This document shows, piece after piece, positions 1 through 16,437 of a DNA stretch of 64,000 nt. The stretch is from the NCBI RefSeq assembly GCF_003325455.1, contig NZ_CP025198.1:620001-684000 (forward strand), written 5' to 3'. The stretch's first letter is position 1. Each line of letters begins with the position of its first letter. This DNA comes from Acidipropionibacterium virtanenii (GTDB lineage Bacteria; Actinomycetota; Actinomycetes; Propionibacteriales; Propionibacteriaceae). A program made the position numbers and the translations under genes. A model generated the notes under the pieces. The model had not been told where the DNA came from, searched no databases, and worked only from the letters and a program-made list of their open reading frames with translations.

Positions 1-1108
1 CTGACTGCAGGCGGCCGACGGCGTGGCCCATCGGGATCCGCTCCTGCTCCAGGCGCAGGTGACCGCTCTCCAGCTCCCGGTAGGTGGCCTCCTCGGTCTC
101 GGTGAGCCCGGCGACGCCGTGTGCCTGGGTGGGTTCGGGAACTGCGAGGCTACGGAACCGGTGGAGGGTCTCGGCATCCATGAGGACCGAACGCGCTCCC
201 GGCAGCCGGCCGCGGGCCCGCGACAAGATGTTGAACCCGTGAGTGTCGAGATCCCCCCAGTAGAGCACGGGTGAATCCGCGATCCAGCCCACCTGATCGA
301 GCTGGACGACGGCGTGCCCACGGCCATGCACCGCCACCACCCCGGGCAGCGGCGGCAGCCCCGCCAAGGTGGTGAGGTTCTCGACGATCAGCACCGCGGC
401 CGGGGCCAGCGCCAACCTGTCGAGCTCGGCGACGCCGGTGGTGAGGTCATGGAGCCGGGACCCCTCCAGCGCGTCGTCGAGAATCCGGATCCGGAAACGC
501 TGCGGCTCCTCGGCCAGTCCCGTGCCCACCTGCCCGGTGACCGCTGTGAGGAGGCGTTCGACCAGTCCGCGATGGCGCTCCAGCCATTTGGTGTCGACGC
601 CGGGGACGGCGACCATCCGCGGCATGAGACCGGAGTCGGGGTGGTCGGTCAGCCATGCCGTCATCGCCAGCAGCCGCTGAAGGTCGGTGTGGTCGAGGGC
701 AGCGGCATCGTCGATCAGGCCCGGCAGCCCGTCTGCCAGATAGCTGGACTCCGGCCAACGGCTCCGGATGGCTCCGGCCGTCTGCCGGCACCTTCGCCAG
801 CCGGCTGCCTGACCTGCGAGCTCCGCGAGCGCCTCGGCGGAGGTGACGCGCACTCGGGCCGGCAGCTTCTGGCGTCCCCAGCTGGGCCAGTTGCGGGTCG
901 CCCATTCCAGCTCGGCACCATCTGGGCCCCGCCATCGGCGCCACGACGTCGCCCATCCGGCGAATGCGTCGGGATCGGCCAGGGCCTGGGTCTCGGTGGG
1001 AATGCCCAGGGAGAAGGTGACGTCGAGGCGGGGCTCGGTGATCCATGCGCGGTGATTGCGGCGGTACTTCGTCACAGCCCAGCGGCGCAGCTCGGCCTGA
1101 TTCTTCAC
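1..1108 (-). CDS. jetD: Wadjet protein JetD, TOPRIM-like nuclease subunit (partial)
   Basis: This is the nuclease subunit of a type I Wadjet system, which in the known family cuts circular plasmid DNA after loop extrusion by JetABC. About 369 residues are visible; the 3' end lies beyond the left window edge. The start is a GTG whose last two bases are shared with the jetC TGA stop (GTGA overlap), so translation is probably coupled. Near residue 290 the motif YWGDLDTHGFNIL matches the acidic TOPRIM-like DUF2220 signature (DxD). The N-terminal half corresponds to the DUF3322 region. It is the last gene of jetABCD. The function follows from the family and the operon; no activity can be inferred beyond that. 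Confidence 0.93.
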   Translation of the reverse strand, partial: MKNQAELRRWAVTKYRRNHRAWITEPRLDVTFSLGIPTETQALADPDAFAGWATSWRRWRGPDGAELEWATRNWPSWGRQKLPARVRVTSAEALAELAGQAAGWRRCRQTAGAIRSRWPESSYLADGLPGLIDDAAALDHTDLQRLLAMTAWLTDHPDSGLMPRMVAVPGVDTKWLERHRGLVERLLTAVTGQVGTGLAEEPQRFRIRILDDALEGSRLHDLTTGVAELDRLALAPAAVLIVENLTTLAGLPPLPGVVAVHGRGHAVVQLDQVGWIADSPVLYWGDLDTHGFNILSRARGRLPGARSVLMDAETLHRFRSLAVPEPTQAHGVAGLTETEEATYRELESGHLRLEQERIPMGHAVGRLQS

Positions 1109-4100
1109 AGCAGGGAGTCCTGGGACTCGGAAGGATCCGGGGCAGTGGTCCCGGGCTCTCCGGTCGTTCCGGGCCTGTCGGTCGTTCCGGGCCCGTCGGT
1201 CCTGCCGGGCTCCTCGGTGGTGCCCGAGGCTGCGGCCTCCACCGGCTGCTCAGGGCTCCCGGTCCCTCCGGCGTCCCCGGAGCCCTCGCCGGCATCGTCG
1301 GTGCCGGCCTCGTCGAAGCTGCGGGCCAGCACCCGGCTCTCGTGGCCGGGCTCGTTCTGGAACAGGATCACTCCGCCGACGTAGTCCTCGAGGGTCTGGA
1401 GCATCTTCATCGGGGTGGCCAGCAGCAACTGGAACCCGAAACTGCGGAACACCTCCAGCCCGGCCCGGGTGAACTCCGGGTCGGTCTTGTCGAAGGCCTC
1501 GTCCAGGGCCACCAGCCCGTACTGGGGTACGGCGGCGCCGTCGCGGGCCAGCTGATAGCGCAGCGCGGCCGCCAGACAGAAGGTCACGAACTTCTGCCGT
1601 TCCCCGCCGGACCGTCCCCCGGCGTCCTCGTAGAAATCGATCGGTCGCGCATCGGCGTCGATCACCTCGGCACGGAACTCGACGTGCTGCCGGGTGTCCA
1701 GGCACAGATCGCGCCACTTGCGGTCCGCCAGTTCCTGGGAGCGGAATCGGGCCATCAGACGCTGAATGCGCAGGAATCGCTCCTCGGCTCCGCGACGCGC
1801 CTCGGGATCGTCGCCGGCCTCCATCACATCGGAGACGGAGTTGGCGGTGATGTCCTGGAGCTCGGCGAGGAAGTCGCGGACCTCGGGGAGGTGGCGCACC
1901 GAGACCTTCACCTGGAGGTGAGCGCCGGGGGAGTACTCGGTGCGCATGAGGGACTCGTTGATCGGGTCGATCCGGTTGCGCACCTCGCGGCGGGAGGTGC
2001 GGATTCTGCTGGACAGGCCGGTGATGTTGTTGCGCGACTGGCTCTGGAGCAGGTCGAAGAACCGGGTCTCGAACTCGGGCAGTCGGTCGCCGCGCAGCTG
2101 GTCGAGGAGTCTGAGGTACTCGGGGAGGTAGTCGACGCCGATCTGCAGGTCGGCGGCGCGCTGCGGCCAGCGCTCCTTGAACCTCCGGGTGTGGTTCTCG
2201 GCGAGTCTGACCTGGCTGTTGAGAGACGCCTGTGTGGCGCTCCGGTCCTTGCCGATGGAGTCCGATGCCGCATGGTGGAGGTGATCGATGTCTTCCAGAT
2301 CGAGGCTCTCCTCGGACCTGCCTCGTCGCTGGGTGGGAGTGACGGTTCTCGCCTCGAGTGCCTTTAGTGCCTGCTCGGGGATCTCCTCGGCCCTGCGCAG
2401 CGCGGCCTGCCACTTGTCGCGCCGGTCGGTGAGGGTGGTGATCTCGCGTTCCTGCTGACCGGCGTCGAGCTGCAGCCGCAGGGTCTCGTCCTTGGCCGCC
2501 CGCTCGGTCTCCTCGCGTTCCTTGAGTTCCGCCTCCGCCCGTGCCAGCTCCAGGTTCCCCGCTCTGAGCTGATCCAGTTCCGCGGTGACGGAGGAGACCT
2601 CCGCCTCGGCGGCCGCGACATCGACATCGTCGGGTCCCAGACGCCGCAGATCGGAGAGGTCGTGACGTCGCTCCTGACGTTCCTTGGCCTCGGCGGCCAG
2701 ACGATCGGCCTCGACTCTGGCCTTGTCGTTCTGGGCGGAGGCGTCGTCGAGCGCGGAACGCAGGGCTTCCCGCTTGGCCTCTGTGGAGGAGCCCAGCAGC
2801 CAGCGGGTGCGGTCGGAGACCGGCCAGCGATCATCCTTCTCGTGTCTGGTGGACGAGTGCTTGATCTGGCCGGCGCGGGTCAGAGCCCGGTCGACGCGGC
2901 CGAATTCGGCGACGTCGTCGACGCATCGGTAGTCGTAGCGGCGCGCGATGGTTGCCGTCAGCCATCCGGCGAACGGCGACGACACGGCGACGGAGACCTT
3001 CCCGGGGAGGGTGTCGCGCGCCGGGGCGCGGGTGGAAGCCGGGGCATCGGGTCTCACCCGCTCCCAGACGAGTCTGGTGCCCCAGTTCCGTCGGTCGATC
3101 GCAGCGGCCGCCCGGGAGTACAGGGCGTCGGGCACCAGGAGGGTACGGGCCAGGGGCCGCAGGACTCGCTCGATGGCGCCCTGCCAGCCGGACTGGCCGG
3201 AGTCGACGTCGATGAGCTCCCCGGCGAAGGGCAGCGTGGACGCCTCGACGCCCAGCCCGTCGGCGAGTTCGGCGCGGGCCCGCAGCAGGGCGGGCTCCAT
3301 GTTGGAATGCTGGGACTCCAGGGTCCTCAGCTCGTCGGTGAGCCGTTGCACCTCGTCGTGAGCACCGAAGCTGACGTGCTGGGCCTGGTAGGTGATCTCG
3401 GCACGCTCCGCGTCCTGCCTGTCGAGGCTCTCGATTCTCGAGTCGAGCAGTGATGCCCAGTCGGACCACTCGCGCGCCGATCCGGGCACAGTCACATCGC
3501 AGCGTCCGGCCTTCTGCTCGGCCTCGGACCGTGCGGTGCGTCGCCGCGACACGGTCGCCTCATGCTCGCCGAGGAGGCGTTCCAGGACGGGAATCCGATC
3601 GCCTCCCAACCCGGAGATCCGGTCGCGGCAGGCCAGGGTGGCAGCGGTGGCGTCGTGCTCCCGGCGCTCGGCGGCGGTGATCTCGGTGCGCAGCCCGTCC
3701 AAGGTGGCCTGGTGGCGGGCGATGAGGGCGGCGGCGGTCTCGATGCGGCGCCGGGTGAAGAAGGTCTCGGCATGGTGCTGCTCGGCGTCGAGCAGGGCCA
3801 ACGTCTCCCTCGCCTGGCGGTGGGCCTTCTCGATCCCCTCCAGGGGCGCCAGCGCCGCCACCTGGTCCCGGGCCTCCACAACCGCACGGTGAGCGGCCGA
3901 CAGCTCCTCGAACTGGTCGACGGCCTGATCGGCCAGGGCGAAGGTGTCGGGTTCGTCGAGCATGAAGTCGCGTAGCAGGGCGTTGAGGTTGCCCAGGTTC
4001 TTGGCGGACTGGGTCTTGTGCAGCAGGCGCTGGGCCTGGTCGGAGGCCAGGCCGAGCTTGCGCTGCAGACGGTTGGCGAAACCGGAGTAGTTCTTGGTGG

Positions 4101-4641
4101 CGGCCCATCCGGGATGGGCGGCCTTGATGCCGCGCGAGTCGATGCCGTTGGCGACCAGCGGCTCGAGAGGCACCAGCTCGACGGTCTCGTCCGCGTCCAG
4201 ATACAACGTCCTGACGTCGCCGGGGCCGGTGGCCTGCTGGGGTGCGTGGAACAGTCTCACCAGGGAGACGACGCGGCCGGCGGCGTCGTCGAAGGTGAGC
4301 GCGATGCCGCTCCAGGTGGCTCCGGTGCGCAGATAGGCCGTGGTCACCTGGCCGGTGGACTCGTCGACGTCGCGGCGGTGGGCGCCGCGCACATAGCTGA
4401 GGACCGACCGCGAGCGGTCCCCCTGGCCGCCCTGCTGGGCGGCGGCGTTGAAGGCCAGCCAGCGGGGCTGGACCATCACCGCGGCGATGGCGTCGAGCAG
4501 CGAGGACTTCCCCGATCCGGAGGCGCCGGTGACCAGGACCCCTCTGCGGGGCACAGCGATGTCGGTGGCGCCGTTGAAGGTGCCCCAGTTCACCAGCTGG
4601 ATGCGCGACAGCCGGAACTGGCCGGGGAACTCGGGGGTCAT
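1105..4641 (-). CDS. jetC: Wadjet protein JetC, SMC-like ATPase
   Basis: This 1178-residue SMC/MukB-like ATPase is the motor of the Wadjet anti-plasmid complex. Walker A GASGSGKSS is at residues 39-47, followed by long coiled-coil arms rich in Glu, Arg and Leu. The ABC signature SGGERQ and a Walker B region (YGLVALDEAFDKTDPEF) are near the C-terminus. The frame stays open upstream to 5139, but the true start is the ATG at 4641, which gives MTPEFPGQFRLS and overlaps the jetB stop as ATGA. A low-complexity Pro/Gly/Thr/Glu tail of about 40 residues with PGTT repeats follows the ATPase head, which is unusual for the family. The family function, plasmid loop extrusion with JetA and JetB, is established elsewhere. 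Confidence 0.95.
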   Translation of the reverse strand: MTPEFPGQFRLSRIQLVNWGTFNGATDIAVPRRGVLVTGASGSGKSSLLDAIAAVMVQPRWLAFNAAAQQGGQGDRSRSVLSYVRGAHRRDVDESTGQVTTAYLRTGATWSGIALTFDDAAGRVVSLVRLFHAPQQATGPGDVRTLYLDADETVELVPLEPLVANGIDSRGIKAAHPGWAATKNYSGFANRLQRKLGLASDQAQRLLHKTQSAKNLGNLNALLRDFMLDEPDTFALADQAVDQFEELSAAHRAVVEARDQVAALAPLEGIEKAHRQARETLALLDAEQHHAETFFTRRRIETAAALIARHQATLDGLRTEITAAERREHDATAATLACRDRISGLGGDRIPVLERLLGEHEATVSRRRTARSEAEQKAGRCDVTVPGSAREWSDWASLLDSRIESLDRQDAERAEITYQAQHVSFGAHDEVQRLTDELRTLESQHSNMEPALLRARAELADGLGVEASTLPFAGELIDVDSGQSGWQGAIERVLRPLARTLLVPDALYSRAAAAIDRRNWGTRLVWERVRPDAPASTRAPARDTLPGKVSVAVSSPFAGWLTATIARRYDYRCVDDVAEFGRVDRALTRAGQIKHSSTRHEKDDRWPVSDRTRWLLGSSTEAKREALRSALDDASAQNDKARVEADRLAAEAKERQERRHDLSDLRRLGPDDVDVAAAEAEVSSVTAELDQLRAGNLELARAEAELKEREETERAAKDETLRLQLDAGQQEREITTLTDRRDKWQAALRRAEEIPEQALKALEARTVTPTQRRGRSEESLDLEDIDHLHHAASDSIGKDRSATQASLNSQVRLAENHTRRFKERWPQRAADLQIGVDYLPEYLRLLDQLRGDRLPEFETRFFDLLQSQSRNNITGLSSRIRTSRREVRNRIDPINESLMRTEYSPGAHLQVKVSVRHLPEVRDFLAELQDITANSVSDVMEAGDDPEARRGAEERFLRIQRLMARFRSQELADRKWRDLCLDTRQHVEFRAEVIDADARPIDFYEDAGGRSGGERQKFVTFCLAAALRYQLARDGAAVPQYGLVALDEAFDKTDPEFTRAGLEVFRSFGFQLLLATPMKMLQTLEDYVGGVILFQNEPGHESRVLARSFDEAGTDDAGEGSGDAGGTGSPEQPVEAAASGTTEEPGRTDGPGTTDRPGTTGEPGTTAPDPSESQDSLL

Positions 4642-5339
4642 CGGGCCTCCGCTCTGGTGTCGTCGGTCTCGTCCAGCAGCCGCTCGATGGCGTCGCGGAC
4701 GGTGGCGACCTCGTCGGCGTCGAAGATGAGGGCCAGCACGGGGGAGATCTCGAAGCGGTCCTCCTCGGCGGTGGGCAGCAGCACCGAGTTCGACTTGAAC
4801 CGTTCCACCGAGGAGTTGACGCGGCGCTCGAATCCGGCCCTGTCGGTGCTGGTTGCCGGGCGGTACACCGACAGCGCGTCGTCGATTTCCGCCCGGTCGA
4901 TGAAGGCGCGGGTGTCCTGGGTCTCGGTGCGCAGCAGGGCGTCGCGCAGCAGTAGCACCAGGCCGGTGTCGATGAGGCTCAGCGGGGTGGAGCGGGTCAC
5001 CTTGGGGATCTCGTCGGCCTGGGCCGGTTCGGCGTTGCGGATGAACGCGACGCCGCGCTCCGTGTCGACGACCAGGGCCAGGAAGAGATCGGCCAGCCGC
5101 GAGCGCAGCATCTCCTCGTCGCGGATCACCACGGGCCACAGCTTGGGATGGCGGTCCCGGTGGATGTAGGGGCCGCGCAGCAACTGCAGCAGGACCCGAC
5201 GGGTCGCCTCGGTCAGAGTGCCGGTGTCGCCGGGGAACAGGCCCGGTGCGGCGGCCTCCGCCTCAGTCCCTCCTTCGATGGCGTGCGGCTCGCCGTCGAT
5301 GTGCGGACCGGACGCGGCGGTCTCAGGCGATCGGGGCAC
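4638..5339 (-). CDS. jetB: Wadjet protein JetB, kleisin-associated subunit (DUF4194)
   Basis: This 233-residue protein has the size and position of JetB (DUF4194), the MukE/KITE-like subunit that sits between JetA and JetC. The central region (RRVLLQLLRGPYIHRDRHPK and ALIFDADEVATVRDAIERLL) is helical and looks like winged-helix packing. It overlaps jetA by 17 bases upstream and jetC by the four bases ATGA downstream, so the subunits are probably made in fixed ratio. Its short N-terminus is acidic and poorly conserved in appearance. Identification rests on size, gene order and the neighbouring diagnostic JetC and JetD. Confidence 0.9.
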   Translation of the reverse strand: MPRSPETAASGPHIDGEPHAIEGGTEAEAAAPGLFPGDTGTLTEATRRVLLQLLRGPYIHRDRHPKLWPVVIRDEEMLRSRLADLFLALVVDTERGVAFIRNAEPAQADEIPKVTRSTPLSLIDTGLVLLLRDALLRTETQDTRAFIDRAEIDDALSVYRPATSTDRAGFERRVNSSVERFKSNSVLLPTAEEDRFEISPVLALIFDADEVATVRDAIERLLDETDDTRAEAR

Positions 5340-6822
5340 GGCGGCTCCACTCCTTCGGGATCTCGGAGATGATGTAGCGCGGCAGGCTCATCGAGCGCCG
5401 GCCGCCACGCGACGTCTGCCAGCCGAGGTTCTCCACCGCGGTGCTGCGGGTGCAGCGTCCGGGCCCGCGGACCAGGCCCTCCGCCAGCACCAGCAGGCCG
5501 ACGATACTGGCCAGCCCCTGATCGGCGGGGAACCGTTCGAGCACCTCGGCCAGGCTGAACACCGGCTTGTCGGCCGCCGTGAGGGAGATGGCCCGGCGCA
5601 GCGCGTCGAAGTCGATCTCGGAGGCCCGCACCTGTTCGCGCAGCGCCTCGAGATCCAGCTCGCCTGGGGCGATCTCGACGACCGGGGTCATGGTGCGGTT
5701 GTCGTCGGGATTGTGGAGCTTCCAGGAGGCGATGGTCGAGATCGGCAGTGACGTCGCGGGCAGCTCGTAGCCGGTGGGCGCGGTGGCCCGGTGCTCGGCG
5801 GCGACCGTTGAGAGGCGCGACCGGGTGGTGGTCAGCTCTGCGGCCAGGCGACGGTGCTCGCGGTACTCGTGGGTCTCGACGAAACGGTGGAGGCTGCGGG
5901 AGAACCCCGTCATCACCTGACGCACCTCCTGGGAGTCGTCCTGGAGGACGCCCAGCAGACCGCGCAGGAACTCCCGGTCGCGGTGGAGGACCGTGTGCGA
6001 CCAGGGGCGGTCGAGGATCTGGTCGACCGACTCGTCAAGTGCCTCGGACCGCTGGACGTCGGTGAGCAGCTGGTGGAATGCGGTGAAGGTGCGGCCGGCC
6101 TCGGAGGACTCGATGACGTCGACGCCGGCGAAGACGTCGTCCAGGACGTCGCCCCGGGATCCGGATCCGGAGACGATCTGGGTACGAAGATCGTGATTGA
6201 GCCGTTCGAGATCCGCCGAGATCTTCGTGAAATCGGCGGGGATCTGGCCGGCCAGGCGCAGCACCTCCGCCAGTCTCTCGGCCGCGGTGACGTCATCCAG
6301 CACGCTGATCCGACCCGCCTCCACCGCGGCGATCTCGGCGTCGATGGCGTCGCGGCGGGCGTGCAGATCGGCCAGCCGGGTCCGGCGGGAGGGATCGGTG
6401 TCGCGGGCCAGGGAGCGCAGCAGCCCGGTGACCGTCGCCAACCGGGAGGAGGTCACCGTCGACTGCGGATGCTCCAGACGTCGCAGGAAGTCCATGGCGT
6501 CCAGGGCGGCCGGTGACAGGCGGACGGTCTCGGTGCGACCGGGGCCGGGGGAGCGCACCACCAGACCCTGGTGAATCCAGCCGATGAGGTACTCCTGGCC
6601 GCCCTGTGGCGCATCGACCCCCAGATCGCGGATCTGGTCGAGGGCATCCTCAGCGCGTTCCAGGAACTCCGAGGTGTCCATGGTGACCGGAGGTTCGTCG
6701 AGGATGGTGCCCAGTACGGCGGCGGAGACCGGAAGCAGGTCGGCGCGCAGCAGCGCCAACGCCGGGCTGTCGGCGACCAGGCGGCGCAGCGCCTCGGCGC
6801 GCGCGGACGGCGATCCGGCCAT
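5323..6822 (-). CDS. jetA: Wadjet protein JetA, kleisin-like subunit (DUF3375)
   Basis: This 499-residue protein matches the DUF3375 (JetA) kleisin-like subunit that bridges the JetC heads. The frame is open 97 codons further upstream. The ATG at 6822 is chosen because GGGGAGGTG precedes it at good spacing and the protein then begins MAGSPSARAEALRR, followed by a typical N-terminal helical domain (residues 1-150). The middle is coiled-coil (ARRDAIDAEIAAVEAG; ISADLERLNHDLRTQI) and the C-terminal third contains a winged-helix-like segment (EVLERFPADQGLASIVGLL). It is the first gene of the operon. A possible promoter and a 5'-UTR hairpin lie in the 106 bases before it. Confidence 0.92.
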   Translation of the reverse strand: MAGSPSARAEALRRLVADSPALALLRADLLPVSAAVLGTILDEPPVTMDTSEFLERAEDALDQIRDLGVDAPQGGQEYLIGWIHQGLVVRSPGPGRTETVRLSPAALDAMDFLRRLEHPQSTVTSSRLATVTGLLRSLARDTDPSRRTRLADLHARRDAIDAEIAAVEAGRISVLDDVTAAERLAEVLRLAGQIPADFTKISADLERLNHDLRTQIVSGSGSRGDVLDDVFAGVDVIESSEAGRTFTAFHQLLTDVQRSEALDESVDQILDRPWSHTVLHRDREFLRGLLGVLQDDSQEVRQVMTGFSRSLHRFVETHEYREHRRLAAELTTTRSRLSTVAAEHRATAPTGYELPATSLPISTIASWKLHNPDDNRTMTPVVEIAPGELDLEALREQVRASEIDFDALRRAISLTAADKPVFSLAEVLERFPADQGLASIVGLLVLAEGLVRGPGRCTRSTAVENLGWQTSRGGRRSMSLPRYIISEIPKEWSRRAPIA

Positions 6823-6846
6823 GATCACCTCCCCTGGCGTGCGACC

Positions 6847-6905
6847 GGGGAGGTCAACTCCCCATGTCCCGACCACGATAGAGGAGGGCGGCGACAGTCC
6901 GTCAA
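6847..6905 (-). promoter_or_regulatory. Possible jetABCD promoter and leader hairpin
   Basis: On the minus strand, TTGACG (6900-6905) is separated by 17 bases from TCTATC (6877-6882), an acceptable -35/-10 pair. Downstream, in the predicted leader, GGGGAG and CTCCCC (6847-6863) form a 6-bp stem with a 5-base loop. The hairpin sits about 25 bases before the jetA start codon, so it could affect translation. Both calls are by eye only. Confidence 0.4.
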
Positions 6906-6928
6906 CGGCCAGTGGTCGCGGCGGCGCC

Positions 6929-8218
6929 TCAACGTGGGCGGGCCGGAACCTGCCGGTTCGGTGAGCTGGCGCGGGTATCGAACCGAGTGCTGGCCAGCCG
7001 TCGTTCCGTTGCGGTGATGAGATCGAGGACGTCGGGGGCCCAGTACGCGCGGCGGCGCCGTCCCGCCGATCCCGACTTGAGGATTCCGGCCTCCTCGAGT
7101 TCGCCCAGCGCACGTCCAGCAGCCATGGCCGAGACGCCGTGGATCCGCTCGACCGTGGCCGCCGTCAGCACCGGTGTGCCCGGAAGATCCTCGAGCACAC
7201 GCGCAGTGGCGGAGTCGGCGCGGAGGCGACGCTGGCCTTGCGACGATCGGAAGGTGCTGAGGCGATGCTCCCAGTCCTCCCGGACGGCTGTGACATCCTC
7301 GCGGAGTGTCTCCGCCTGCTCGGTCGCTTTCAGTACTGCCCCGGCGAATTCGACCAGCCAGATCTGCCTGCCCGTGATACCGGCCGTGGACCCGGCGTCG
7401 CCCACATAGCGGTACCCGGACAGCCCTCGAACGTACTCGTCGCTGAACGTCGCCAGAACGAGGCTGACAGGCAGCACTGAGGCTGAGGTGAGGCCCCGAC
7501 GGGTGAGGGTGGTGTGGATGAGGGCTCGGCCGACACGACCGTTGCCGTCGGTGAACGGGTGAATCGTCTCGAACTGGGCGTGGACCAGTCCGGCCTGGAC
7601 AACCGGTGCATGCGCGGCACCGTTGAGGTACTGGACGAGATCTGTCATGAGGTCCCCGACGAGGTCGGGCGCCGGCGGGACGAAGTCGGCGTCGATCGGA
7701 TGCTGGTAGGAGCCTCCGATCCAGTTCTGGAGAGTTCGCAGTCCGAGGTGATGCCGATCGTCGGCGAGCAGGGCGTCATGGACGGCCACGACGTCCTCGA
7801 CTGAGATCCGATCGGCTGCGGCGAGCCGAGTGGTGGCGTCTCGCACCAGAGTCATGTTCCTGGCCACCAGCTCGGCCTGTGCCGAGAAGCCTTCCAGGTC
7901 TTCCTCCTGGGCCAGCTCGGCCAGTGCGACCTGGCGGGCCGACGGGGCGATGCCCTCGATTCTGGAGGAGGCGATCGCCTCTGACCGGATCAGGAACCGG
8001 GACAGATGTGCAAGATCGTTGGCGCCAGGCCCGCTGTTGAGGCTGACCACGGCGCGTTCGGCCCGGCTGAGAAGTTCGTCGAGATCCGGACCAGTGGTGA
8101 GTGGCGATCCCGTCAGCCGGTCCGGGACGTAGTACTGGTACGGCCCCGAACGCCTGTCGCGCCGTGGGACACCGGAGGCGACGTCGGAGTGCCAGTAGGC
8201 GCCTTCCCAGTGGGCCAT
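6929..8218 (-). CDS. Fic-family protein (probable AMPylase) with N-terminal inhibitory helix and C-terminal wHTH
   Basis: This 429-residue Fic/DOC protein has the full active-site motif HPFTDGNGRVGR at residues 220-231, so it should be able to transfer AMP or another nucleotide to a protein target. The motif SSRIEG at residues 84-89 matches the S/TxxxE(G/N) inhibitory helix of class II Fic proteins, which means it is probably kept inactive until released. The region after residue 330 (ATVERIHGVSAMAAGRALGELEEAG) reads as a winged helix-turn-helix, suggesting autoregulation through the palindrome just upstream. An AAGGGG ribosome site precedes the ATG. It lies directly upstream of jetA with a 106-base gap. 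Whether it is part of the defence locus or merely adjacent is not shown by the sequence. Confidence 0.9.
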   Translation of the reverse strand: MAHWEGAYWHSDVASGVPRRDRRSGPYQYYVPDRLTGSPLTTGPDLDELLSRAERAVVSLNSGPGANDLAHLSRFLIRSEAIASSRIEGIAPSARQVALAELAQEEDLEGFSAQAELVARNMTLVRDATTRLAAADRISVEDVVAVHDALLADDRHHLGLRTLQNWIGGSYQHPIDADFVPPAPDLVGDLMTDLVQYLNGAAHAPVVQAGLVHAQFETIHPFTDGNGRVGRALIHTTLTRRGLTSASVLPVSLVLATFSDEYVRGLSGYRYVGDAGSTAGITGRQIWLVEFAGAVLKATEQAETLREDVTAVREDWEHRLSTFRSSQGQRRLRADSATARVLEDLPGTPVLTAATVERIHGVSAMAAGRALGELEEAGILKSGSAGRRRRAYWAPDVLDLITATERRLASTRFDTRASSPNRQVPARPR

Positions 8219-8294: not shown

Positions 8295-8873
8295 TCACCG
8301 GACAGCGGCTTTCCGTGCCGGCAGAGCCATGGCGTCGACCAGCCAGTCGAGGGTGACGCCGGCGTCGGCGATCTCGGCGACCAGGATCCGTGCGCAGGCC
8401 AGGGCGTCGGCGTCCGCCCGGTGGTGGGAGAAGGTCTCACCGGGGAAGTAGTGGCGGAAGACCTGGTCGAGCTTCATCGTTCCGCGTTGCCAGCCCAGCA
8501 GCCGCTGTGCGGTGCGATAGGTACACAGCCGCGGGCCGTCGAGGGTGGGGGTGCCGAGGGTGGCGGCCAGCGCGTTCCAGACACTGAAGTCGAAGGCCAT
8601 GTTGTGGGCCACCACCGGGCCGTCGCCGATCATCTCCAGATACTCGTCGACGACGTCCTCCCAGCCCGGGGCGTCGGCCACCTCGACAGGGAGGATGCCG
8701 TGGATGGAGATGTTCATCGGGTGGAAGGAGTCCTTGCCGGCCGGCGGATGGAGGAGATGGGCCTTCTCCTCGATGACCCGGCCCTCCTCGTCCATCGTCA
8801 CCGCCGCTATCGAACAGGCCGAGGCGCGCTCACGGTTGGCGGTCTCGAAGTCGATGGCGGTGAATGTGGTCAT
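8295..8873 (-). CDS. DEDDh 3'-5' exonuclease, DnaQ/epsilon-like
   Basis: This 192-residue protein belongs to the DnaQ-like (DNA polymerase III epsilon-like) exonuclease family. The DEDDh residues are visible: D and E in AIDFETAN (residues 7-14), D in HNMAFDFSVW, and H and D in SHHRADADA near residue 160. It has no polymerase or BRCT domain, so it is a stand-alone exonuclease rather than the replicative proofreader. The start at 8873 is supported by AAGGAGG 5-6 bases upstream, although the frame is open further. An IS30 element is inserted about 100 bases upstream of its start and may have altered its promoter. The substrate, DNA or RNA ends, cannot be decided from sequence. Confidence 0.88.
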   Translation of the reverse strand: MTTFTAIDFETANRERASACSIAAVTMDEEGRVIEEKAHLLHPPAGKDSFHPMNISIHGILPVEVADAPGWEDVVDEYLEMIGDGPVVAHNMAFDFSVWNALAATLGTPTLDGPRLCTYRTAQRLLGWQRGTMKLDQVFRHYFPGETFSHHRADADALACARILVAEIADAGVTLDWLVDAMALPARKAAVR

Positions 8874-8970
8874 GGGGCCTCCTTGCGCCCAAGTCTGCCC
8901 TGACGGCCCGACATCCGTCGCATCGGGGGACGGCGGCGACAGGTTCGGGCCGGTCTGGGCGAGACGAGAA

Positions 8971-10308
8971 TCCCGCTCAACGGCCCTTCTCAGCGGCAGG
9001 TTCAGGGGTTCAGTGCAACACCCGGGAGTGAGAGGTGTTGTGATGAGTCGTTGGCCACAGTTGGGTGAGTGGGTGCGGTTGCAGGTCCTGGACCTGGTGG
9101 GCCAGGGCATGTCGGCAATCGCCGCCTGTCGGCGTGCCGGGGTGTCCCAGGATCTGGGCGGTCGATGGATCCGTGAGGCCGGTATCAGTCTGGCTCGGGG
9201 CCACAATGGCGGGATGACAGGTGCCTATGTCGCCCAGGCTGTCGAGTTCCCCCAGGTCCGTCCCTCTCATGGGGCCCGGCTGGACCTGGCCGACCGGACC
9301 CTGATCCATGTCTACTGGTCCCAGGGACGGTCAATGCGCCAGATCGCCGCCGAGCTCGGGGTCGCGCCCTCCACGATCTGTCGGGAGATCGCCCGGGGAT
9401 CGACGGCGGTGGGTTACCGGGCCCCGACCGCCCAGGAGCGGGCCGACCGGATGCGGGCCCGGCCCAAGCCCCGGAAACTGGATGCCGATCCGCTGCTGCG
9501 CGCCCGGGTCATCGAGGGCCTGAACGCCGGCTGGTCACCCGAGCAGGTCTCCGGACGCCTGGAACGCTGGTGGGGTAAAGAGGCTGCGGTGAGCCACGAG
9601 ACGATCTATCAGGCCCTCTACGTCCAGGGCGCCGGGTCACTGCGTCACGAACTGGAGGTGGCCTCCGCCCTGCGCAGTGGGCGGAAGGGCCGTAAACCCC
9701 GTTCCAAGCTGCCCGCCCGCGGCAACCGGCCCTGGGTCACCGGCCACGAGATCACCACCCGTCCCCCACAAGCCGATGACCGGGCGGTGCCCGGCCACTG
9801 GGAGGGGGACCTGATCATCGGGGCCGGCGGGGCCAACGCGGTCATCACCCTGGTCGAACGCCGGTCCAGGACCCTGTTGATGTCCCGGCTGCCGACAGAC
9901 CACGACTCGGCGACCGTCGCCGAGGCGCTGGCCGGCCTGATCGCCGGGCTGCCCGACCAGGTCCAGATCACGACACTGACCTGGGACCAGGGCACCGAGA
10001 TGGCCCAGAGTCCCGGGTTCGCCATGGCCAGCCATATCGACGTGTTCTTCTGCGATCCGCACTCGCCCTGGCAGCGACCCACCAATGAGAACACCAACGG
10101 TCTGATCCGTCAGTACTTCCCCAAGGGCACCGACTTCTCCCAGATCACCGACGAGCAGATCGCCCAGGTCCAGGACCTCCTCAACGACCGACCCCGCAAA
10201 GTCCTGGGATACGCCACTCCCCGCGAGATACTCTTCGAACAGTTCACTGTTGCACTCACCGATTGAATCCGCCAGCCCGATCGGGACGAGAACCCCGGTT
10301 GAGCGGGA
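8971..10308. mobile_element. IS30-family insertion sequence, complete
   Basis: The element is about 1.34 kb. The left end reads TCCCGCTCAACGGCCCTTCTC; the reverse complement of the right end reads TCCCGCTCAACCGGGGTTCTC. These are imperfect terminal inverted repeats with identical first 11 bases. The sequence GTGCAACA recurs subterminally at both ends in inverted orientation. An AA dinucleotide flanks each side (8969-8970 and 10309-10310) and could be a short target duplication, as IS30 elements make 2-4 bp. It carries one intact transposase and no passenger gene. Exact ends are by eye. Confidence 0.75.
9043..10266 (+). CDS. IS30-family transposase
   Basis: This 407-residue DDE transposase has an N-terminal pair of helix-turn-helix segments (AIAACRRAGVSQDLGGRWI and MRQIAAELGVAPSTICREI) that would bind the terminal repeats. 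The RNase H-like integrase core follows, with first catalytic D in GHWEGDLIIG, second in TWDQGTEM and E in PTNENTNGL, the last being the typical IS30 motif followed by RQYFPKGTDF. The start is the ATG at 9043; the longer open frame upstream belongs to the exonuclease shadow. A GTG three bases earlier is an alternative. The gene is intact, so the element may be mobile. Confidence 0.95.
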   Translation: MSRWPQLGEWVRLQVLDLVGQGMSAIAACRRAGVSQDLGGRWIREAGISLARGHNGGMTGAYVAQAVEFPQVRPSHGARLDLADRTLIHVYWSQGRSMRQIAAELGVAPSTICREIARGSTAVGYRAPTAQERADRMRARPKPRKLDADPLLRARVIEGLNAGWSPEQVSGRLERWWGKEAAVSHETIYQALYVQGAGSLRHELEVASALRSGRKGRKPRSKLPARGNRPWVTGHEITTRPPQADDRAVPGHWEGDLIIGAGGANAVITLVERRSRTLLMSRLPTDHDSATVAEALAGLIAGLPDQVQITTLTWDQGTEMAQSPGFAMASHIDVFFCDPHSPWQRPTNENTNGLIRQYFPKGTDFSQITDEQIAQVQDLLNDRPRKVLGYATPREILFEQFTVALTD

Positions 10309-11637: not shown

Positions 11638-13290
11638 TCAGACCCCGATGCCGAGCCGCTCGGCCACCTCGGCCCCGCCCGCGGAGGCGATGAGACGCGG
11701 ATCGCCCACCACCACGAGCAGATCCGTGGCCCTCGACATGCCCACGTAGAGGCGCTCGGCCGCACGTTCGCTCACCGACGACTCGTTGACGCACAGCACC
11801 ACCACGCGCCGCTCCAGGCCCTTGAACCCCAGCACGTGGCCGTAGAAGACGTCGTCCTCGTCCAAGGTCTCCCAGTAGTCGCGCGCTCCCAGCTCGTCCT
11901 GCCGCTCCTTCTGGACGGGGTGGCGCCGCCCGGTGGTGAGCAGCGCGATGTCCCCGGCCTGCCAGCCGTCGGCGAACAGGGCCTCGACGGCGTCGTCGGC
12001 TGATCCGATGGCGTCGTCGCCGGCTGCCGGGATGAACTCGACCTCCGGCCCCTCACCGCCGCGCGCCGACAGCCCGGTGGGGGCCAGAGGCTCGAAACAG
12101 CGGGCGATCTGCCGGGTGTTGCGCAGATTGTGGTCCAGCACCAGCGGCACCAGGCGAACAGGCGGGCGGCCGTAACGGGGGAAGACGCGCTGCTGCTCGT
12201 CGGAGTAGACGTAGAGGCCGCCTGCCTCCTCGTCGCGCAGGGCCCGCAGTATCGGCGTCCACCAGTTCTCGGCGAAGTCCTGGGCCTCGTCGACGATCAC
12301 GGCGTCGAACTTCTTCCCGTCGGTCAGCCCGAGGGCCGCCTCCGCCATCTCCTCGGGAAGACGGCGCTCCCAGAAGTCGGAGTCGTCGCGTCCGGCGGCC
12401 TCGATCCCCCAGGACCGCCCGAGGTCCTCGAAGGTACCGACGAAGGCCGGCTGCTTCTTGCGCGGTCCGGTGAGCAGGCTCTTGCGCAGATGGGCGGCCA
12501 GACCGTAGGAGTAGCACAGCACGGCGATGCGTTCCGCCTTGCCATAGCGGCCGGAGGCGAGATCGCGGGCCTGGCGGACGGCCATCACGGTCTTGCCGGA
12601 TCCGGCTCCGCCGCGCACCTCGACGCGGGGGATGAGCCGGGTCACCGACAACAGCGTCGCCTGCTCCTCGGTGAGATGGTCGGAGAGTCGCCGGCGGTCT
12701 CCGGCCAGGGCGCGGACGTCTCTGTCCGGGAGGTTGCGGCCGCACAGGATCGCCTCGATGGTGGCGACGTCGTGCGCGTCGGGGATTGCGGCGTCGGCGG
12801 CGTGAAGGCTCGTGGTGTCCCAGATCCGCTCGCCGACATCGGGCAGGTCGGCGCGTCCGGAGATCTGCCAGCGTGGGCATTCGGGCAGGCTGAAGTCGGC
12901 CTTGACGTCGGTGTAGGGCAGGACGACGTGGTGGGAGAACCGCAGTCGGCGTCCAGGTCGGCGAGGGTCGGCGGACAGGTAGCGGCGCAGGGCGTGGTCG
13001 GCGAGCATCGCCTGGTTGACGGGGTCGATGGCGGCGGTGGTGCCGCCGCGGTTGATGAGCCACGACTCGCCGTCGTGCCAGACGTGTGAGCCCTTGACCT
13101 CGATGGTGACGACGCCGGAGCCCGGCATCAGCGCGATCAGATCGGCCTCGTGATCCTTGTGCTCATCGGAGATGCGCTGGTTGGTGAGCAGCACGCAGTC
13201 GTCGGGCAGCTGGCGGGCCAACCGTTGCCAGACGTCCCGCTCCGAATCGGTGACGAAGGTGGGCCGGTCCGGGACTGTGCGCGCCGTCAT
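11638..13290 (-). CDS. NERD-domain / SF1 (UvrD-like) helicase protein
   Basis: This 550-residue protein combines an N-terminal NERD nuclease-related domain (residues 10-110, with E and D in DHEADLIALMPG and EVK in VVTIEVKGS) with an SF1 helicase core. Walker A GGAGSGKT is at residues 227-234. Walker B AVIVDEAQDF, motif III-like LYVYSDEQQRVF, motif IV-like DHNLRNTRQIA and motif VI LYVGMSRATDLLVVVG all follow in order. NERD-helicases are known in DNA processing and in some phage-defence contexts. This one sits in an accessory stretch with Wadjet and the helicase-sigma gene, but it is a single gene and its exact role is unknown. The ribosome site upstream of the ATG (GGTGACCCC) is weak. Confidence 0.88.
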   Translation of the reverse strand: MTARTVPDRPTFVTDSERDVWQRLARQLPDDCVLLTNQRISDEHKDHEADLIALMPGSGVVTIEVKGSHVWHDGESWLINRGGTTAAIDPVNQAMLADHALRRYLSADPRRPGRRLRFSHHVVLPYTDVKADFSLPECPRWQISGRADLPDVGERIWDTTSLHAADAAIPDAHDVATIEAILCGRNLPDRDVRALAGDRRRLSDHLTEEQATLLSVTRLIPRVEVRGGAGSGKTVMAVRQARDLASGRYGKAERIAVLCYSYGLAAHLRKSLLTGPRKKQPAFVGTFEDLGRSWGIEAAGRDDSDFWERRLPEEMAEAALGLTDGKKFDAVIVDEAQDFAENWWTPILRALRDEEAGGLYVYSDEQQRVFPRYGRPPVRLVPLVLDHNLRNTRQIARCFEPLAPTGLSARGGEGPEVEFIPAAGDDAIGSADDAVEALFADGWQAGDIALLTTGRRHPVQKERQDELGARDYWETLDEDDVFYGHVLGFKGLERRVVVLCVNESSVSERAAERLYVGMSRATDLLVVVGDPRLIASAGGAEVAERLGIGV

Positions 13291-13488
13291 GGGGTCACCG
13301 TAGCGGGTCGATGCTGGCAGTATGAGCGGATTTCCGAGCCGGGCATGCGTCCACGGGTGGCTGGGGCACGGGTGAATAAGGCGATGACAACGCTATATGG
13401 ATGCTGAGGAAGAACTGTCAGAGGCCCTCTCTAGAGTGAGGGCCGTCGACGATGCAGGTCGACGCCGCGAGGAAGCAGGAGGACGGCG

Positions 13489-16437
13489 ATGAGACGCCCG
13501 GCATTGGGGACGATCGGGGGTCTGGGTTCGCACCCGCTCAACAAGTTGCCGTGCCGCGAGCCGATGCTGCCGTTCGAGGCGGGTGGAGTTGTTGAAACGG
13601 GTTCCGCCGAGACCGATGACGCGGTCACCGATGGCCCCGGGGCCCCAGAGGCGAGGGAAAACACCGATCCTCCCGCGCTCGAGGAACTCGAGTACGAACC
13701 CGAGACGGAACCGGACGGCGACGACCAGATGGGGTACGTCGGCGGTACCGCGTCGCGGGCCTTGCCGGTCGATGACGATGATGTTGATGATGTCGATCTT
13801 CCCGAGCTGACCGACGATCCCTGGACGATGAAGCCCGGTACGAGACTGTGGGCCTGGCAGCGCGACGCAGTCGATGCCTGGAACACCGGCGACCACGTTG
13901 GCATCGTGCAGGCCGTCACCGGAACCGGCAAGACCATGGTCGGCGTCGTGGCCATTGCACAGGCCTTGAGGACCGGCCGGAGATGCGTGGTCCTGGTGCC
14001 GAGCGATCACCTGGTCAAGCAGTGGGTCCGTGCCCTGAGGCTGCTCCTTCCGAACGCGATTCTGGCCGAGAAGGCTGAGGAGAAGCCGATCTGGGATGTC
14101 CGCGTCTCCACCGTCCAGACGGCCATGAGCCACACCTTCCTGATGCGCCGCGAGGCGGGCATGGTGGTTGCCGATGAGTGCCACCGCTACGGCGCACCGG
14201 CCTACTCGGTGGCGCTGCGGCCCGGATACGACTGGCGGCTCGGGTTGAGCGCCACGGTCGAAAGGGAGGATGACGGGGACGAGATCCTGAAGGCCTACTT
14301 CCGTCGCGTCTCCTTCGATCTCGGGTATCAGAGAGCGGTGGAGGACAACCTCATCGCCCCCTACGACATCGCCCTGGTGGGGGTTCCGCTGGAGGCCTCC
14401 GAGAACGCCGAGTACCGACGGCTCACCGATGAGATGAGTGCGAAGGCGACGCAACTCAAGGACATCGCCGGCGTCCCGTCCGAACCCGTCTCCGTGTTCA
14501 TGGCGCAGGTGAGTGAACTGGCGAGGGACCATTCCTCGATGTGGCACGGGCTGGCGAGCGCCTATCTCGCCCGATTCGCTGGGCGCAAGGACCTGCTCGC
14601 CGGTACACGGATGAAGCAGAAGGTACTGCGAATCCTGGCTCCGGTTGTCAGCAGGTCGCACGGTTCGCTGGTGTTCACCCAGACCAAGGAGTCCGCGCGG
14701 TCGGCGGCCGAACTTCTGGGGAGAGAGGGCATCTCGTCGGGGGCAGTCCATTCGGGGCAGGGCGCCGACGAGCGCGAGGAGAGCATATTCGAGTTCGCGG
14801 CGGGAGTGACGCAGGCGCTCGCCGCGCCCCGGGTGCTCGATGAGGGAGTCGACGTGCCCGGCGCCGACCTCGGAGTGGTCGTCGCATCGAACAGGTCACG
14901 ACGACAGATGATCCAGCGGATGGGCCGCGTGCTGCGCCGCAAGAACGGCGATCGCCCTGCCCGGTTCGTCGTCATGTACGCCATTGACACCGTCGAGGAT
15001 CCGCATCACTTCGGTGAGATGCCGGCCTTCTTCAAGGAGTCGTTGCCCTGGGCCAGACAGTGGGAGGAGTTCGACCTCGGCGTCGCAGGGGAGTCGGTGC
15101 GACTGCTGGAGTTCCTCGGTGTCACCCAGGAGCAGCCCGAATGGGAGTCGGAGCGGGAGGGGCTCATCGGTCGCGGTCCTGGCATCGAGGGCGGACCGGA
15201 GCCGGGCGGGCCGGTCGGGACGACGCCGGTCGAGGTCACAACGACCCGTCCCGGAACGGGCCGGAATCGTGACACGGACGATCAGTCGCCGCAGCCGGTG
15301 GGGGAGAACGACGAGCCGACTGTCACCATCGCGGCTCCGGCCACAGATGACGCCGCCGGTTGGGAGGATGCGGACTGGGATGACGACGAGGAGCTTCTGG
15401 GCGGGATCCGGATCAGCGACGACATCGTCCGCGACTATCTGCGTCAGATCGGCCGGTACCGGCTTCTCCGCGGGGGCAAGGAGGAGGCCGCCCTCGCGCG
15501 TCGGATCGAGTGTGGTGTGTACGCCTCACATCTGCTCGACATCGGAGCCTGGGATGCCGCCGCGACTCGTGCCGATTTGGAACTCCTGGCCGGTCAAGGC
15601 ACGGTTGCGTTCGAGCAGATGGTGACGGCGAATCTGCGTCTGGTGGTGTCGGTCGTGAAGAGGACGGTGGGCACCGGATTGGAATTCATCGACCGTATCC
15701 AGGAAGGGAATGTCGGTCTGATCCATGCGGTGCAGAAATTCGACTACAGCAAGGGATACAAATTCTCCACCTATGCCACCTGGTGGATCAAGCAGGCCGT
15801 GACCAGGGCGACAGCGGCTCAGGGGTCGACTATCCGCATCCCCGTGCACTTCGGCGAGCGGATCAACAAGGCCAGGAACTGGCTGAGGGATCACGATCTC
15901 GAGTGGGGGGACTGTTCAAAATCCTGCACCGATGGAATACCGGAACTCGAGATCTCCTACGACGAACTGGTGCGCATGAGCCGGATGGCGCGCCCGCTGG
16001 TGAGCATCGAGTCCCTGTACGAACTCGTATCCGATTCGGTGGAGATGACGCCGATCCACGGTGACGGCCCTGTGGTGCCGGGTCTCCATGGTGACCCGAA
16101 CACGCCTTTCGTGTGGAAGGCGATGGAGATCCTCCAGTTCGAGGATCCGCGAGAGGCGCGGATCCTCATGCTGCGGTGGGGATTCGAGACCGGGGAGCCG
16201 GAGACGCTGGATGCGATCGGAGGAGTCTTCGGGGTGACCCGTGAGCGGATCCGGCAGCTGGAGAAGCTGGGGATCGAAAGGGTTCGGGACATCGTTCGGG
16301 AGAATGCTGCAGGCCAGATACCGGAGAACCGCCCCACCTCTGCAATTCCAGTGCACGATAAGAGGCAGGGTCTCCATTCACGAATCAAGGCGCACGGTAA
16401 GAGTCAACGTCGAAAATCGGCAAAGGTGGGTTCCTGA
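13489..16437 (+). CDS. SF2 helicase fused to a complete sigma-70 factor
   Basis: This intact 982-residue ORF has two halves. Residues 1-110 are an acidic, disordered leader. Residues 115-515 are an SF2 helicase of the XPB/Res (COG1061) type: Walker A VTGTGKT (143-149), DECH box (229-232), SAT (254-256), LDEGVDVP (450-457) and QRMGRVLRR (476-484). An acidic linker (545-635) leads to a sigma-70 factor: region 1.2 DDIVRDYLRQIGRYRLL (644-660), region 2 with NLRLVVSVVK and KFSTYATWWIKQAVTRA (715-774), region 3 IRIPVHFGERI (782-792), and region 4 with GVTRERIRQLEKLGIERVR (915-933). The region 2.4 and 4.2 helices resemble those of primary or group 2 sigmas, so binding of -10/-35 DNA is plausible. 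AGGAGGA precedes the ATG. The fusion itself is directly visible. The role is unknown; ATP-driven promoter opening or stress-triggered transcription are only hypotheses. Confidence 0.93.
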   Translation: MRRPALGTIGGLGSHPLNKLPCREPMLPFEAGGVVETGSAETDDAVTDGPGAPEARENTDPPALEELEYEPETEPDGDDQMGYVGGTASRALPVDDDDVDDVDLPELTDDPWTMKPGTRLWAWQRDAVDAWNTGDHVGIVQAVTGTGKTMVGVVAIAQALRTGRRCVVLVPSDHLVKQWVRALRLLLPNAILAEKAEEKPIWDVRVSTVQTAMSHTFLMRREAGMVVADECHRYGAPAYSVALRPGYDWRLGLSATVEREDDGDEILKAYFRRVSFDLGYQRAVEDNLIAPYDIALVGVPLEASENAEYRRLTDEMSAKATQLKDIAGVPSEPVSVFMAQVSELARDHSSMWHGLASAYLARFAGRKDLLAGTRMKQKVLRILAPVVSRSHGSLVFTQTKESARSAAELLGREGISSGAVHSGQGADEREESIFEFAAGVTQALAAPRVLDEGVDVPGADLGVVVASNRSRRQMIQRMGRVLRRKNGDRPARFVVMYAIDTVEDPHHFGEMPAFFKESLPWARQWEEFDLGVAGESVRLLEFLGVTQEQPEWESEREGLIGRGPGIEGGPEPGGPVGTTPVEVTTTRPGTGRNRDTDDQSPQPVGENDEPTVTIAAPATDDAAGWEDADWDDDEELLGGIRISDDIVRDYLRQIGRYRLLRGGKEEAALARRIECGVYASHLLDIGAWDAAATRADLELLAGQGTVAFEQMVTANLRLVVSVVKRTVGTGLEFIDRIQEGNVGLIHAVQKFDYSKGYKFSTYATWWIKQAVTRATAAQGSTIRIPVHFGERINKARNWLRDHDLEWGDCSKSCTDGIPELEISYDELVRMSRMARPLVSIESLYELVSDSVEMTPIHGDGPVVPGLHGDPNTPFVWKAMEILQFEDPREARILMLRWGFETGEPETLDAIGGVFGVTRERIRQLEKLGIERVRDIVRENAAGQIPENRPTSAIPVHDKRQGLHSRIKAHGKSQRRKSAKVGS

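Follow-up and report, generated by a model that had tools for sequence, protein, structure and literature searches.

An XPB-like helicase fused in frame to a sigma-70 factor in Acidipropionibacterium virtanenii: a candidate ATP motor for promoter opening

The fusion gene and its product

The gene described here, from Acidipropionibacterium virtanenii, encodes in a single reading frame a superfamily 2 (SF2) helicase followed by a sigma-70 factor. It lies at 13489..16437 on the forward strand of a 64,000-nucleotide stretch of contig NZ_CP025198.1 (positions 620,001 to 684,000), which we call the window and in whose coordinates all features are given. The helicase-sigma architecture appears novel; each half comes from a known family. 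Translation yields 982 codons free of internal stops, as a preliminary description of the stretch had claimed, and every helicase and sigma motif string quoted there is present in the product (P0001). The GC fraction at third codon positions is 0.74-0.90 in each 50-codon bin up to about codon 950, the helicase-sigma junction included, and the longest stop-free run in 20 shuffled versions of the window (one strand, three frames) is 491 codons. The sequence AGGAGG at 13477..13482 of the forward strand, 6 nt 5' of the ATG, is a probable ribosome-binding site.

The N-terminal region of the protein (residues 1-111; 13489..13821; all parts of the gene are on the forward strand) is predicted to be disordered up to residue 108. 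It is followed by the SF2 helicase/translocase (residues 112-559; 13822..15165), within which the Pfam families ResIII, DEAD and Helicase_C match in residues 122-484 above the gathering cut-off. Motif I is VTGTGKT (residues 143-149; 13915..13935), and motif II is DECH (residues 229-232; 14173..14184), with D, E and H identical in all 20 aligned helicase rows. Motif III, SAT (residues 254-256; 14248..14256), precedes R259-E260-D261, which resembles the RED motif of XPB; its R and D are likewise invariant (20/20) and its middle residue is variable. Motif VI, QRMGRVLRR, is located at residues 476-484 (14914..14940). Sequence profile and predicted fold both identify this half as XPB-like. The preliminary description had assigned it to the helicase family of XPB; the relation holds at the level of profile and fold, whereas the equivalog cut-off of the NCBIfam XPB model NF045503 is not reached (85 bits for the window protein against 610). 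Mfd and UvrB are weaker profile matches, and the titles of several top structural matches name repair proteins or repair complexes.

A linker (residues 560-644; 15166..15420; predicted to be disordered at residues 562-620) leads to the sigma half. Its region 1.2 (residues 645-678; 15421..15522), region 2 (residues 707-780; 15607..15828), which includes the W-W dyad, and region 4 (residues 872-943; 16102..16317) are called by Pfam above the gathering cut-off, at residues 645-678, 711-778 and 886-933, respectively. Region 3 and the start of region 3.2 occupy residues 781-845 (15829..16023), where Pfam calls no match to region 3. Identity to SigA of the same genome is 68% in regions 2.1/2.2, 78% in 2.3-2.4 and 73% in 3.0, and falls to 12% in 3.1 and 17% in 3.2. 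Of the regions originally assigned, 1.2, 2 and 4 therefore stand, and region 3 is only partly right, with 3.0 conserved and 3.1 and 3.2 diverged. A basic tail, predicted to be disordered (residues 944-982; 16318..16434), closes the protein.

Structure prediction was based on an alignment of 27 sequences comprising the window protein, three other fusions, and separate sigma and helicase relatives. The model consists of two confident bodies, at about residues 112-559 and at residues 645-943 with a poor stretch at 837-868, and is disordered at residues 1-108, 562-620 and 944-982. Since the overall pTM (predicted template modelling score) is 0.53, the placement of the helicase and sigma bodies relative to each other is not fixed by the model.

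The fusion gene is separated from a divergent neighbour by 198 bp (13291..13488), and no match resembling the sigma-70 consensus promoter was found in 13200-13600. A short block within 13400-13470, 5' of the start, composed of TGTCAGA and then a TA-rich hexamer, looks common to four congeners and may be a promoter or operator of unusual type.

Residues kept and lost in the sigma half

The nearest solved relatives of the sigma half are mycobacterial SigA proteins. We compared 19 sigmas of the fused lineage, of which 17 are in frame with helicase sequence, one is in an overlapping frame (genome G175) and one is a separate gene (G658), with 77 SigA, 34 SigB and 13 remaining sigmas, grouped by identity. 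Of the E. coli sigma residue numbers, W433/W434 and Y394 are given in PMC4593229, and the Taq numbers follow Table 3 of that paper.

The promoter contacts are well retained. W256, W257, Q260, R264, R274, V277 and H278 (Taq numbers) are kept in 19/19 fused-lineage sigmas, and position 281 is E in 15 and D in four. By E. coli numbers, E585, R588 and Q589 are present in all 19, R584 in 18 and T440 in 15. In total, the window protein has all tested contacts of regions 2.3, 2.4, 3.0 and 4.2, and the family retains each of them in 15-19 of the 19 sequences. R584 is R in 77/77 SigA and 0/34 SigB, so the fused sigmas are SigA-like at this position.

Other residues are retained less strictly. Y217 is found in 10/19 fused sigmas (73/77 SigA, 33/34 SigB and 12/13 remaining sigmas) and R291 in 12/19 (75/77, 32/34 and 11/13, respectively). 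The loss is most pronounced in the GD motif of the sigma finger (region 3.2), where G is kept in 4/19 fused sigmas (75/77 SigA, 34/34 SigB, 7/13 remaining) and the second aspartate, D2, in 2/19 (74/77, 34/34 and 13/13). Two further finger positions do not clearly tell the groups apart, namely D1 (13/19 fused, 73/77 SigA, 30/34 SigB) and S (9/19, 65/77 and 0/34). R220 and R288 are uninformative because SigB also lacks them (0/34 each). Judged by these residues, the sigma half appears to keep recognition and to lose parts of initiation. W256 and Y217 are reported to accelerate opening and not binding (PMC4593229); of these two opening residues, W256 is always kept and Y217 is often lost.

Distribution and evolution of the fusion

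A search of 198 Propionibacteriaceae genomes with the helicase half gives 15 genomes with a match at 1e-40, and ten of these carry in-frame fusions, one of which (G136) is cut at a contig edge. In the others, the helicase frame is broken at different points (G002 and G004), the sigma part contains deletions (G133) or lies in another frame (G175), or only a helicase remnant is left (G020). Fusions occur in the named records of Aestuariimicrobium kwangyangense, Tessaracoccus rhinocerotis and a Propionibacterium metagenome-assembled genome. The genome sets searched at the levels of family, order, class and phylum overlap. At order level, 23/391 genomes match at 1e-20, with one added fusion from another family (G350). 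At class level, 10/394 match at 1e-25, and fusions from two further families (G416 and G618) and a split pair (G658) are added. At phylum level, 62/396 match at 1e-25, and the 27 new loci listed hold helicases without sigma and no further fusion.

In-frame fusions are also found on two Micrococcaceae plasmids, from Pseudarthrobacter and Paenarthrobacter (427 and 440 kb), and a Rhodococcus plasmid carries the helicase without sigma. Because the plasmid records label the fusions only as 'sigma-70 family RNA polymerase sigma factor', the annotation hides the motor. Viral contigs yielded no close relative, only distant helicases (19 loci), and the same is true of phage records, with about 25% identity among the matches listed. 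The preliminary description had called for a search for both domains in one protein, and such proteins indeed occur in frame across genera, families and plasmids. A sequencing or assembly artefact is rejected, since other genomes carry the fusion independently.

Several of these copies show peculiarities of their own. The loci of G002 (L090) and G004 (L091) have a frameshifted helicase half and an otherwise similar remainder, for which an error of the draft assembly is possible. G020 holds two truncated helicase remnants (L095 and L096) with identical translation and the same neighbouring genes, as might result from a duplicated or mobile segment or from a duplication in the assembly. The tails of all ten Propionibacteriaceae fusions checked outside the genus of the window (L100, L101, L102, L104, L105, L106, L107, L108, L110 and L117, two of them near-copies) contain one to three P-[RK]-R-[AGT] motifs, such as PRRAL and PRRAI. 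These are perhaps binding motifs; they are absent in the two congeners checked, and the window protein shows none. The plasmid fusions (L125:8908-11877 and L126:8914-11886) end in acidic DEDPF-type repeats, which resemble the tip of the tail of SSB, the single-stranded DNA-binding protein. L125, the only plasmid fusion tested in this respect, has an extra C-terminal helicase-associated (HA) domain.

A sigma tree was built with 10 SigA, 8 SigB, 9 other actinobacterial and 11 outgroup sigmas as comparators. All 19 sigmas fall on one side of a branch with a support of 94/83 (not starred), so that the sigma parts of the fused family constitute a lineage of their own, distinct from SigA and SigB. 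The helicase tree divides the fused proteins into a group from the order of the window and a group comprising the Micrococcaceae plasmids, G416 and G618, so that two label changes are needed. G618 is in conflict, with its sigma, on a long branch, in the first group and its helicase in the second; both trees hold some long branches. Between the window protein and the G001 fusion, the ratio of nonsynonymous to synonymous substitution rates (dN/dS) is 0.11 in the helicase (residues 113-545) and 0.16 in sigma, compared with 0.34 in the linker (546-640), 0.43 in the N-terminus and 0.72 in the tail (941-982). By the low values of the first two, both halves are under purifying selection and are maintained.

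The split forms are instructive. In G658, three genes stand in a row: one for an SF1 (superfamily 1) helicase that carries an MTES_1575 nuclease domain, one for the XPB-like helicase and one for a complete, unfused sigma. The last two abut, the stop codon of the one being followed by the ATG of the other. Both G658 copies of the helicase end in a C-terminal sigma region 4 (E 4e-11 and 6e-17), and a faint region 4 ends the G544 helicase (E 0.002). Each of these helicases (L136/L173 and L143/L177 of G658; L137/L176, faint, of G544) is encoded directly behind an SF1 nuclease-helicase gene. We consider the split and region-4-only forms the best evidence that the motor and the sigma factor act in concert and that the motor can make use of region 4 by itself. 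The three genes at L173:4886-12462 (G658) are tightly packed and constitute a candidate defence operon.

Neighbouring genes

Upstream of the fusion, the window encodes on the reverse strand the Wadjet genes JetA, JetB and JetC (1105..7113), a Fic protein (PADLOC SoFic; 6929..8218) and, as the divergent neighbour, a NERD-UvrD nuclease-helicase (11638..13290), which is a recurrent co-resident. The locus is thus the accessory stretch with Wadjet and a NERD-helicase that had been described. An open reading frame at 8545-10266, between the Fic gene and a SIR2-like gene, resembles an IS30-type transposase; these names come from the sequence and not from a search.

At other loci, we scanned neighbours chosen by hand, mostly long ones, with the loci of G618 and G136 left out. 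These include BrxL and PglZ (G175), HmaA (G180), a type IIG enzyme (G113), type I restriction genes (G108), a Druantia-like helicase and a GmrSD-type HEC-05 protein (G039), and HerA/DndH-like and PD-T4-6-like genes (G350). Around the G001 fusion the NERD-helicase alone was recognised, at G012 only a UvrD-like helicase with weak GajB matches, and at G041 and G133 only a second, distant PbeA-like helicase; G039 also has a UvrD-like helicase beside its fusion. In neither plasmid annotation is a defence gene named near the fusion.

A NERD-helicase is found in 39 of 197 family genomes, so that its mere occurrence carries little weight. In 5 of 14 family genomes (G000, G001, G108, G179 and G180), no more than about 25 kb separates it from the helicase-sigma gene. 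It adjoins the fusion divergently in the window and in G001 and on the same strand in the distant G416, and it adjoins an unfused helicase in G367. A strict partnership is rejected, as the NERD-helicase is absent from G002 and G004. JetA-C stand beside the window gene and a JetA relative beside the G002 and G004 genes. JetA had no match in the G001 locus or in the searched loci of other genera, and a Wadjet with the fusion as a required part is rejected on these grounds.

In a comparison without such choice, ten fusion loci were set against as many loci drawn at random from the same genomes. Of 82 fusion-locus neighbours, about 9 reach a PADLOC defence family at 1e-40, compared with 3-4 of 119 control genes, and the one-sided Fisher p is 0.015-0.06, varying with the count used. 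The loci of G041 and G133 are near-copies, the control set covers 119 of 122 proteins, and the counts are deduced from family tables without member names, in which 25 of 34 families are listed. The loci of the family are often rich in defence genes. Given the modest enrichment over control loci, the association with defence seems genuine, though of moderate strength.

Possible action of the fusion protein

In the standard account, sigma-70 factors open promoters without ATP, while RNA polymerase II (Pol II) uses the XPB motor. In the bacterial holoenzyme, sigma region 1.1 lies near downstream DNA, and in the Pol II complex XPB acts on downstream DNA. We suppose that the fusion is an ATP motor directed to RNA polymerase and promoters, and our leading interpretation, to which we give a probability of roughly 0.4, is that a holoenzyme containing it opens promoters with the assistance of ATP. 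The sigma half would engage core RNA polymerase at promoters of the usual consensus type, and the motor would occupy the place of region 1.1, near downstream DNA, which the linker of about 85 residues could let it reach. There it may pump or twist the DNA with ATP, like XPB in TFIIH, and its force would replace part of the spontaneous melting that the sigma half has seemingly lost with the sigma finger and Tyr217. The most likely use would be in defence islands, with the protein acting on promoter complexes during viral attack and two conceivable outcomes: the ATP-driven opening might sustain transcription, or the invader's consensus promoters might be disturbed. The suggestion of a covalent helicase-sigma that acts as a defence or stress transcription switch is partly borne out; the fusion is conserved, and the defence link is moderate.

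The conservation of the wedge tryptophan favours a contribution of the motor to the opening force. Weighing against it, the lost finger residues, the region-4-only relatives and the nuclease neighbours favour another scheme, in which the sigma half serves only to bring the translocase and a nuclease partner to the promoters of invading DNA or to the RNA polymerase there. The motor would then block, strip or feed DNA to nucleases, and the protein would be a defence effector and not an initiation factor. We regard this as a serious, if still doubtful, explanation. It would account for the defence genes around the fusions, for region-4 helicases encoded directly behind SF1 helicase-nuclease genes (twice in G658 and faintly in G544), for the loss of two sigma-finger residues, and for copies that are patchy and often broken. 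Many phages use host-like promoters, for which unchanged housekeeping contacts would be well suited. However, W256 in 19/19 sequences and the conservation of regions 1.2 to 4 exceed the need of a homing tag, the fusion contains no nuclease, and two sister genomes lack the adjacent NERD protein.

A role in transcription-linked repair or polymerase rescue, in which the XPB-like motor would repair or backtrack at promoter-bound polymerase with no link to viruses, seems improbable. The repair proteins among the best structural matches, the weaker Mfd and UvrB profiles and the UvrD-like helicases beside the G012 and G039 fusions are consistent with it. Nevertheless, the defence-rich loci, patchy distribution and fast evolution are unlike those of core repair genes, and the neighbours scanned include no repair gene besides the UvrD-like helicases and a weak AlkZ-like match (G179). 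The broken helicase frames of two sister genomes and the sigma frame shift, sigma deletions and helicase remnant of one genome each might hint that two unrelated genes were joined without function or by the assembly, which is very improbable given in-frame fusions in ten family genomes, further families and two plasmids, and purifying selection on both halves.

In a bolder version, the fusion would be a sigma-70 factor with an XPB motor of its own, the first in bacteria to open ordinary consensus promoters with ATP as TFIIH does, and would act as a phage-proof spare sigma, keeping host and defence genes transcribed when a phage captures or silences SigA; this idea stems from the combination of the same DNA contacts with diverged protein surfaces. 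We consider this extended proposal speculative and rather unlikely. A natural, conserved protein joining an XPB-type motor to a sigma-70 factor makes motor-driven bacterial initiation, and its purpose, directly testable; if the protein is a weapon instead, promoter recognition would have been reused to find foreign DNA.

Comparison with known systems

The preliminary description knew of no system of this kind, and we found no helicase-sigma fusion described in the open-access papers searched. The papers that we drew on report the reuse of transcription-factor domains in defence and not this fusion (PMC9523054, PMC12839542, PMC12458937, PMC7641849, PMC8195603, PMC4593229). Examples given there are the sigma-like helix-turn-helix of BrxL (PMC12839542), TATA-binding proteins (TBP) in the TALON and TOTE systems (PMC12458937), and extracytoplasmic function (ECF) sigma genes near conflict systems (PMC8195603).

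With SigA/HrdB and SigB (groups 1 and 2), the sigma half shares regions 1.2, 2, 3.0 and 4 and the promoter contacts, but it differs by its separate lineage, the diverged 3.1/3.2, two finger residues and the N-terminal XPB-like motor. MzaA, termed in PMC9523054 a sigma factor of the validated anti-phage system mzaABCDE, is represented by NCBIfam NF041931, which matches the sigma half. This match covers the sigma part only and scores 215 bits against an equivalog cut-off of 800, a score exceeded by the SigA encoded in the same genome (350 bits), and no MzaB-E protein is among the neighbour proteins scanned. The fusion is therefore rejected as MzaA in an MZA system, since the equivalog cut-off is not reached.

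On the helicase side, the fusion differs from XPB/Rad25, as in archaeal XPB-Bax1 and the XPB of TFIIH, by its disordered N-terminus and the attached sigma factor. The closest named bacterial families are PbeA and the DndFGH-type phosphorothioate-restriction helicase (PADLOC PbeA, E 4e-64; TIGR04095, 149 bits); however, the PbeA match is confined to the helicase half, and the TIGR04095 cut-off of 600 bits is not reached. DndC is above its cut-off in 0 of 18 genomes with the helicase family, with two weaker matches in G136, and a role as a PbeABCD/Dnd component is rejected on account of this absence and the score below the cut-off.

The sigma54 system is built from sigma and ATPase families unrelated to those of the fusion, with the motor on a protein of its own. 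If our interpretation applies, the fusion would share with sigma54 and its AAA+ activators the opening of bacterial promoters by ATP (PMC9770992).

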